Shown here one piece after another: positions 9,749 to 11,481 of a stretch of DNA of 64,000 nucleotides; positions within the stretch are counted from its first letter, which is position 1, and every line of letters begins with the position of its first letter. Below the pieces are notes generated by a model. It had not been told where the DNA came from. It was given only the letters and a program-made list of their open reading frames with translations, and did no database searches. The stretch spans positions 1 to 64,000 of the forward strand of contig NZ_PVUF01000001.1 in NCBI RefSeq assembly GCF_003003215.1, in the 5' to 3' direction. The translations under genes and the position numbers were made by a program. The DNA comes from Tritonibacter scottomollicae. GTDB taxonomy: Bacteria > Pseudomonadota > Alphaproteobacteria > Rhodobacterales > Rhodobacteraceae.

Positions 9749-10342
9749 CTAAGTCTGGGTCGTGCAATGCCTGTCGACCATTCGCTGAACCATAGGCGCA
9801 AAATGCCAAAAATCTGGTGTTACCATATCCGGTCGCTTTCCTGCGTCATCTAGATAGCGGACGGCAATGATCTGCTCCAAATTCTCATTCTGCTCGAATA
9901 CAGCGACTTCTTTGGCATCCATCGGGCCGCCCTGAAGGTTGAGCGAATGAACGGAGGCATCTGACAGGCGGCGGAAATACTCAGGCCGTGTCGCACAAAG
10001 GTATCGTTTGGCGGCGACATGATAGCGTACGCAATCTGTAATCACGCTGGGGAAAAATCGCTCCAGTACCTCTGCGCCCGCGTCTTCGTGGTGGCGGTCT
10101 TCGGTGTCATCCATTGTGAATGTCCCGAATTCACTGGTGAAATGCCCAATGTCATGCAGCAGCGCACCGACGATGATCTCCTCGGGCTGGTCGTTCTGTT
10201 CGGCAATCGTTGCCCCCTGCAACATGTGCTGCCCCATGTTCACCGGTTCGCCCAGATACTCTTCATCCCCGCGCCGATCAAAAATGGACCCGATGAATTC
10301 CACGATGGTGTCACGGCTCAGGTTGTTGATGTCCGGCTTCAT
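9749..10342 (-). CDS. tmpB: HD-domain mixed-valent diiron oxygenase, TmpB/PhnZ type (phosphonate C-P cleavage)
   Basis: The 197-residue protein has every ligand expected of the PhnZ/TmpB branch of HD-domain oxygenases: His39, His63-Asp64 (LLHDIGH), His85 (HHEDAG), His108 (HVAAKRYL) and Asp165 (RYLDDAGKR), plus the gating pair Tyr29 and Glu32 in YLGEP. The segment [16 protein letters not shown] also matches the family. These enzymes cleave the carbon-phosphorus bond of a 1-hydroxyphosphonate with O2. TmpB converts 1-hydroxy-2-(trimethylammonio)ethylphosphonate to glycine betaine and phosphate. The ATG at 10342 overlaps the tmpA stop as ATGA; an upstream GTG/ATG extension would lie inside tmpA. 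The TmpB call rather than PhnZ rests mainly on the partner gene. Confidence 0.82.
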
Positions 10343-11481
10343 TCTGCGGCCTCCAGGTCGGGTTTGCGGCACAGTGCGTCATAGGTCGACCTCAACCCGT
10401 CCTTGTCTGCGTAACACCCCTGCAGCCAGCGCGTACCCTCGCCGGAATAGCCCTTGCGGGCATGGAGAACCCGGGTGTTGTCGACAATGAATGCCTCACC
10501 GGGGTTCAGGCGGAAGGTGACTTCCATCGCGGTGTCGTCGATGATTTCGCCAAGGCGGCGATATGCAGCGTAGTAGGTGTCCATCTTCTCAAAGGGGACA
10601 TCTGTTACGGCAGCAAGGGACCGGTTGTTGAACCGCACTCCGATCAGCTCTCCATCGGGGGCAAGTTCGATCATTGGACGGCGTGATGTCAGGCAAACGC
10701 CTGCTTCACCGGCATACTCGAAACGGGCGCAGTGATCTGCCAGTACGTTGAAATATGCCTCGTTTTCATCCCGCAGGCGCTGTGCGGCGGCAAAGCCATC
10801 CACCACCATGTTCTCTCCGCCCGCAGCCGAGCTTTCGAGACAATAAAGCACCTGCACCGTGGGAACTGGATCACGGTAGGGGTTGTCGGTATGCGCTTGC
10901 AGCCCAAGCCCGGTAAAGGCGAGGTTGGTCGGATTGACTTCAGTGCGAACCTCGAAGTGCCGTCCGTAATTGGTTTCCCGCACAAACCCGAACAAAGCGA
11001 CCAAATCGAACAGGGCGCCGTCTTTCGCCGGGCCATTCACCACTTTGCCAAACCCAAACCTGCTCACCAGCCCTAACCAGTCGCGCAGGGCGGCATCATT
11101 CTGAGACAACTGCTCAAAATCCCCGGTGGGAACATTCCCCATCAAGCCTGAATCCCAGGTTTCAGTTGTGGGGGGCGTCCATCCGCGCTCATGACTTTGT
11201 TCGACGTCATAGGCATGGGCATCGAGCCAGCCAAGGTCGTAAGCGACCTCTTTGTTTTCGGGGGCAAACGTGACCTGCAGGGTCTGACCCTGCAGGTCGG
11301 CAGAGCGAATGGTGGTATCCGCAGGAATGTCCCGCAGCGAAATCAGGCGCTGGCCATTGGCGGCGGCGCGCGTCTCAGCGTCACTTGCGTTATCGCGCAG
11401 CCAGATCGCGTGAAAGCGTTTTTCAGACTGGCCAGAGGTGAGTGTTAGGTGAGTGCCCGCTGAGGCGACAGTGACTGACAT
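10339..11481 (-). CDS. tmpA: Fe(II)/2-oxoglutarate dioxygenase, TmpA type (gamma-butyrobetaine hydroxylase-like)
   Basis: The 380-residue protein has the two-domain layout of gamma-butyrobetaine hydroxylase: an N-terminal DUF971-like domain (residues about 5-95, with HAIWLRDNA) and a TauD/TfdA catalytic domain. The iron triad is His197, Asp199 ([11 protein letters not shown]) and His340 ([13 protein letters not shown]), with Arg351 for 2-oxoglutarate. The zinc cysteines that true butyrobetaine hydroxylases carry after WLRDN are absent here ([13 protein letters not shown]). The gene is cotranscribed, with an ATGA overlap, with a PhnZ-like HD oxygenase. That pairing is the signature of TmpA, which hydroxylates C1 of 2-(trimethylammonio)ethylphosphonate; carnitine synthesis would not need the second enzyme. 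Confidence 0.8.

Follow-up and report, generated by a model that had tools for sequence, protein, structure and literature searches.

A probable tmpAB operon for 2-(trimethylammonio)ethylphosphonate breakdown, accompanied by a divergent LysR-type regulator gene, in Tritonibacter scottomollicae

The 64,000-nucleotide stretch of Tritonibacter scottomollicae DNA analyzed here (the window) very probably carries a two-gene tmpAB operon whose products would convert 2-(trimethylammonio)ethylphosphonate (TMAEP) to phosphate and glycine betaine, together with a divergent LysR-type regulator that probably acts at a conserved box between the two transcription units. In the proposed mechanism, TmpA, an Fe(II)/2-oxoglutarate dioxygenase, would hydroxylate C1 of TMAEP to the (R)-alcohol, and TmpB, a mixed-valent diiron HD oxygenase, would use O2 to cut the C-P bond and release phosphate and glycine betaine; characterised relatives are the basis for this substrate, reaction and stereochemistry. 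The LysR protein, bound to its T-N11-A box, would probably turn the operon on, with the substrate or a close compound as the signal. This pathway has already been described in Leisingera caerulea, for which the available portions of two papers report a two-gene operon and the reaction (PMC10574752, PMC8177086), and the pair in the window is a further example of it. According to the accessible text of a 2023 paper, it is the only described pathway for trimethylated aminoethylphosphonate (PMC10590968).

The two open reading frames of the preliminary description were both found open and intact on the minus strand. The tmpA gene (10339..11481, 380 amino acids from an ATG start) encodes a predicted 2-(trimethylammonio)ethylphosphonate hydroxylase of the Fe(II)/2-oxoglutarate type, in which a domain search identified a TauD domain and a GBBH-like N-terminal domain, and tmpB (9749..10342, 197 amino acids) encodes a predicted (R)-1-hydroxy-2-(trimethylammonio)ethylphosphonate oxygenase with a mixed-valent diiron HD domain. 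As read from the minus strand, the TGA stop codon of tmpA overlaps the ATG of tmpB at 10342 by four bases (ATGA, 10339..10342), and a GGAGG lies seven bases 5' of that ATG; in the list of open reading frames the tmpB frame is also open from an upstream GTG (207 amino acids). The overlap and the GGAGG are consistent with translational coupling, and, because the tmpB start overlaps the tmpA stop, TmpA and TmpB are probably produced together. The ATGA at the tmpA stop was present in 95/106 related loci. After tmpB, no minus-strand open reading frame of at least 100 amino acids occurs before 9373, so that the operon apparently consists of two genes; the minus-strand frame at 8924-9373 is antisense to an SH3-protein gene (8915-9499). 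No phosphonate transporter was seen in the tmpAB locus.

In phmmer searches of solved structures, the E-values of the characterised enzymes were better than those of their nearest rivals by over 70 orders of magnitude for both proteins, with TmpA matching the solved TmpA 6npb at 2e-156 and butyrobetaine dioxygenase (BBOX), its second-best solved relative, at 4.2e-47 over the whole length, and TmpB matching the solved TmpB 6npa at 3.9e-111 and PhnZ at 1.1e-31. A far weaker match to TmpA was DfmD 9j0j (E 6e-28), an enzyme of dehydrofosmidomycin biosynthesis that, in the available text of PMC9296572, also uses TMAEP, which it desaturates and rearranges in a biosynthetic pathway. Window TmpA is 64.0% identical to L. 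caerulea TmpA over 367 columns and 27.2% identical to human BBOX over 357 columns. It passed the cut-off of the curated NCBIfam equivalog NF049936 (594.7 bits against 400) and missed that of the BBOX model TIGR02409 by 14 bits (400.7 against 414.75), a score so near the cut-off that misnaming of such proteins as butyrobetaine hydroxylases is explicable. The cut-offs for trimethyllysine dioxygenase and hydroxymethylphosphonate dioxygenase were likewise missed by the tmpAB products.

The residues expected of a TmpA are also in place. The Fe(II) facial triad of this fold has the form HxD...H, and in window TmpA it comprises H197, D199 and H340, which are invariant in 106/106 related rows, in 6npb and in human BBOX. 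The phosphonate ligands of TmpA are given as N187, N287 and R288, with N191 and N293 named as counterparts in human BBOX, in the accessible part of PMC9296572. Since the chain numbering of 6npb runs six higher, these ligands correspond to N186, N286 and R287 of window TmpA, and all three are retained in the alignment. Position 287 is Arg in 106/106 related rows and Ala in human BBOX, and position 286 is Asn in 99/106, Ala in four and Ser in three. The absence of zinc cysteines after the WLRDN motif, to which attention had been drawn earlier, was confirmed: window TmpA has no Cys within 20 residues after WLRDN, while human BBOX has CPCSDC there (the cysteines are seen in the 4bg1 sequence), which we take to be the zinc site. 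Only one of the 106 TmpA-like rows, that of locus L045, has a Cys in those 20 residues, the row of L052 not covering the stretch. The identities, the family cut-offs, Arg287 and the missing zinc cysteines speak against a butyrobetaine hydroxylase, in line with the split proposed earlier.

The HD protein is identified as TmpB rather than a plain HD phosphohydrolase, also in agreement with the preliminary description, by 83.3% identity to L. caerulea TmpB (192 columns) against 34.1% to PhnZ (182 columns), and by a score of 351.4 bits against the cut-off of 300 of the curated NCBIfam equivalog NF049941; the Phn-HD model TIGR03276 was missed (192.4 bits against 214.6). For the characterised TmpB, an HD motif and a YxxE loop with Y30 and E33 are described in the accessible text of PMC8177086. 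The window protein has the metal ligands H39, H63, D64, H85, H108 and D165 and the YxxE pair Y29/E32, so that the ligand set noted earlier is indeed complete. However, PhnZ and all 55 alignment rows agree at the nine positions checked, and thus this set by itself cannot separate TmpB from PhnZ; it marks the type of oxygenase and not the substrate. What tells this predicted TmpB apart from PhnZ is its similarity as a whole, its score above the family cut-off and its TmpA partner.

Within the family of the window, a TmpA match at E <=1e-80 was found in 26/198 genomes (198 genera, window included). In the class, the curated TmpA cut-off was passed in 28/385 genomes and any match at E <=0.001 was seen in 153/385, and none of 14 control genomes matched the curated model. 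TmpB-like HD proteins (E <=1e-10) were detected in 38/398 genomes of the phylum. For the comparison of loci, 25 were taken from the family search and combined with the best 80 of 568 related stretches in named genomes and with the window, giving 106 loci that include three pairs with identical TmpA and equally long contigs, each looking like one genome entered twice. The best 80 stretches came mostly from Rhodobacterales, with some from Rhizobiaceae and Roseibium/Labrenzia, one from Geminicoccus, one from Comamonadaceae, and others. TmpB adjoins TmpA on the same strand at 106/106 loci, which demonstrates the pairing for close relatives, since these loci were chosen by closeness to TmpA.

In the TmpA tree, in which 41/103 inner branches were poorly supported, L. 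caerulea TmpA falls in a 7-row group (support 99) beside a 91-row group (89) that holds the window; by this tree, window TmpA belongs to another subgroup than the characterised enzyme and to the same large group. The TmpB tree was built from the 30 of 39 HD matches to which loci had been assigned, together with 22 of the 106 TmpA partners, the window protein and two references. Here the window protein, L. caerulea TmpB and all 22 partners form one 38-row group (support 100/97), with PhnZ and 16 other HD proteins outside it, in an outer order that is unsure because of long branches. A phylogeny of both proteins against TmpA/TmpB and PhnY*/PhnZ had been suggested as a check; both do group with the characterised TmpA and TmpB, and the comparison extends to PhnZ, in the TmpB tree, while PhnY* is in neither tree. 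The assignment to a TmpAB-type TMAEP pathway is thereby supported by similarity, curated cut-offs and trees alike, and the window pair shares domains and catalytic residues with the L. caerulea enzymes (6npb/6npc/6npd for TmpA, 6npa for TmpB), at 64% and 83% identity and in a two-gene operon such as is reported there (PMC10574752, available text).

Seven TmpA-like proteins outside the window, at loci L038, L040, L046, L047, L048, L051 and L052, carry Ala or Ser where the window protein has N286 (ligand N287). They form one group in the TmpA tree (support 90, not starred), which branches earlier if the tree is rooted on human BBOX, although the great length of the two outgroup branches makes this rooting uncertain. 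All five of those scanned passed the curated TmpA cut-off (five of the seven were scanned), and one of three scanned TmpB partners fell narrowly under its own (299.7 against 300). Six of the seven loci lie near at least one of a zinc alcohol dehydrogenase, an MFS protein or a mandelate-racemase-type gene. This subgroup may have shifted to a different phosphonate substrate. At 12/106 loci a type I phosphodiesterase-like gene was observed near tmpAB (e.g., L120:241-1119; PF01663, only the L120 copy having been scanned), and in six of these 12 it lies on the tmpA strand, centred about 1.6 kb past the midpoint of that gene. The product of such a gene might release ester-bound TMAEP; in the window, no gene of this cluster was found near tmpAB.

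We regard it as extremely improbable that TmpA is a gamma-butyrobetaine hydroxylase of carnitine synthesis that stands beside an HD hydrolase by chance. BBOX does resemble window TmpA in matching it over the whole length and in acting on a trimethylammonium substrate, it is the second-best solved relative, its TIGR02409 model comes just short of its cut-off, and TmpA and BBOX share one clade in a published tree, as far as the accessible text of PMC9296572 indicates. Nevertheless, human BBOX is 27% identical against 64% for L. caerulea TmpA, has Ala in place of Arg287 and has the cysteines that TmpA lacks after WLRDN, and a TmpB partner is present at 106/106 loci. Additionally, a second, distant TmpA/BBOX-type protein of the same genome (C28:1221-2288, 27.8% identical to window TmpA) could fill such a role.

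Action of the pair on 2-AEP or another related phosphonate, in the manner of PhnY*/PhnZ or on a new substrate, instead of on TMAEP, is very improbable. PhnY* belongs to a different dioxygenase family from TmpA. The PhnY*/PhnZ route for 2-AEP resembles TmpAB in that hydroxylation is followed by C-P cleavage by a diiron HD oxygenase, and differs in that its substrate, unlike TMAEP, carries no methyl groups (PMC8177086, available text). That PhnZ has the same iron ligands and YxxE loop as window TmpB is weighed against an identity of 34%, compared with 83% to L. caerulea TmpB, and while the Ala and Ser replacements at N286 in one TmpA-like subgroup make substrate drift in the family conceivable, window TmpA keeps both N286 and R287. 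In the accessible parts of the literature, moreover, TmpA is described as highly substrate-specific (PMC10574752) and HAEP as inefficiently transformed by TmpB (PMC11203657). The conversion of TMAEP by a TmpA/TmpB pair remains the preferred reading of this locus.

Antisense frames aside, only one further gene keeps a constant position in most loci: a divergent gene for a LysR-type regulator (11583..12437, plus strand; PF00126, PF03466), for which we propose the name tmpR. A divergent LysR homologue was found in 74/106 loci by clustering and in L097 and L107 by direct search (76/106 altogether). The pair does not require the regulator, because the other 30/106 loci, two of which (L052, L117) end at a contig edge, show no LysR homologue. 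Its best-scoring family was the GcvA subfamily, and it scored below the cut-off in every family among the matches listed (25 of 42). The present description of the gene and its box covers the window and the related loci.

The box, ATAANNNCAANTNA (11538..11551, plus strand), has the form T-N11-A, the classic LysR-type pattern, and is a candidate TmpR operator. It was recognised in an alignment of 68 of 74 intergenic regions, six having been dropped because of overlapping estimated ORF starts and at least one pair of rows (L031, L098) coming from the same genome. A11538 and T11539 were kept in 67/68 regions, C11545 in 66/68 and A11546, A11547 and A11551 in all 68, while no letter exceeded 34/68 in columns 11527-11536. 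From 11544 to the LysR ATG the alignment is gapless in 68/68 rows; one row, L060, is gapped inside the box. Allowing up to one mismatch, the box lies upstream of TmpA in 68/74 LysR loci (43 exact; six without), in 4/30 loci outside the LysR clustering (L097 and L107 among them have LysR; two loci were skipped) and in 38/2080 shuffled segments. The count of 68/74 is partly circular, since the box was defined on the same loci, and the contrast with LysR-free loci is less so. Across the window, the pattern matched twice against 0.12 expected, and 1/100 shuffles reached two matches. The second match (2614-2627), also exact, is located at the 5' end of a further LysR gene (1673-2623, minus strand), which is divergent from a TRAP transporter.

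With up to three mismatches, the Pho box consensus CTGTCAT-N4-CTGTCAT matched six times in the window against 4.0 expected, and never between 8453 and 38794, hence not at tmpAB. A sigma-70 promoter scan of 9400-12900 found none, with 1.7 expected, an outcome that carries no weight either way. For PhnR, PalR and AepR, LysR control in response to a ligand is described in the available text of PMC10574752. By analogy, and because a LysR gene and box are conserved with no Pho box near, we infer LysR control of tmpAB in response to a ligand; the LysR gene and the fixed distance of the box suggest that tmpAB may be controlled by the substrate. The literature searched, with few subscription papers and without the original 2019 TmpA/TmpB report, yielded no description of a tmpAB regulator in the portions available.

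Within the genus, a TmpA match (E <=1e-80) was found in 2/18 genomes, one of the 18 being 67% complete. In the other carrier, G592 (locus L200), the LysR-tmpA-tmpB trio occupies another genomic position, and the TmpA encoded there shares 73% identity with that of the window, versus 81% for Pseudophaeobacter flagellatus; the trio is thus patchy in the genus. A tRNA-Pro(CGG) gene identified with ARAGORN (12790..12866, minus strand) has its 3' end facing the tmp genes, and 17/18 genus genomes have the flanking gene that lies beyond it (14039-15169, leuB by eye). In blastn comparisons (pieces of at least 60 bases), similarity never extended left of 12704 in 16/16 genus loci, and the backbone match ended at 12734-12788, at the 3' end of tRNA-Pro, in 12/16 and further right in the other four. 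These observations suggest that the tmp trio may have been gained at a variable site linked to the tRNA gene.

Within the genus, the region 3' of tRNA-Pro (12704-12866) is itself variable, as 7/12 of the left flanks compared had no similarity to any of the rest at the threshold applied. In one relative, L193, a second copy of 12704-12849 (88%) is found some 8 kb from the first. A frame at 12564-12719 (plus strand), which to our eye resembled a tyrosine recombinase C-terminus, was considered as an integrase remnant and set aside, since neither Pfam nor PHROGs matched it at E <=1 and, when 17 genus loci and 80 tmp loci were searched with tblastn, only L100 produced a hit, of 27 residues. No second copy of the tRNA-Pro 3' end was present in the genome at up to three mismatches, and the flank found near tRNA-Pro in L189, L190 and L193 sits here on another contig (C13), followed by genes resembling rpoB/rpoC by eye. 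On these two grounds a simple bounded island is no likelier than a rearrangement. The GC content is 0.54-0.58 at tmp, 0.67-0.70 to the left (6-9.5 kb) and 0.55-0.56 just to the right, and it was dropped as a sign of transfer, given the equally low right flank.

Elsewhere in the genome, a C-P lyase PhnJ was detected (C1:305153, 477 bits; among 14 controls only E. coli matched), so that TmpAB need not be the only phosphonate route of the cell. The genome has nine matches to the PhnD family of binding proteins, among them one at C1:297766 and two further strong ones on C11; this family is not specific, as 12/14 controls also matched. From these matches, a phosphonate importer unlinked to tmpAB is plausible, and import through it, the use of the products and induction by the substrate would complete the proposed scheme. 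The pathway might then, as suggested earlier, supply a marine cell with phosphorus, nitrogen and an osmolyte together. In the window, a TRAP transporter, two FAD oxidoreductases and a RidA-type protein (2650-8784) make up what looks like a cluster for the oxidation of amines or amino acids next to tmpAB, which was rejected as part of the tmp system, having no counterpart at other tmp loci among the clusters listed. The frame at 3-791, at the start of the contig, contains a gp5 C-terminal trimerisation domain (PF22178), presumably as in VgrG-type spike proteins.

The window thus adds a well-supported example of the TMAEP pathway, in which the pair stays together in the loci examined, usually beside a divergent LysR gene and an operator-like box, and it is the regulator and the box that are worth testing. 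Tentatively, and with somewhat less than even confidence, we propose that tmpR-tmpA-tmpB is a compact, self-regulated and horizontally spreading TMAEP module, in which the LysR protein would sense TMAEP, its hydroxy form or betaine, bind the box and turn the operon on regardless of phosphate, so that the phosphonate would be a source of betaine and nitrogen and not only emergency phosphorus. The box offers a cheap and direct handle on whether the phosphonate is used only under phosphate starvation or whenever it is met.
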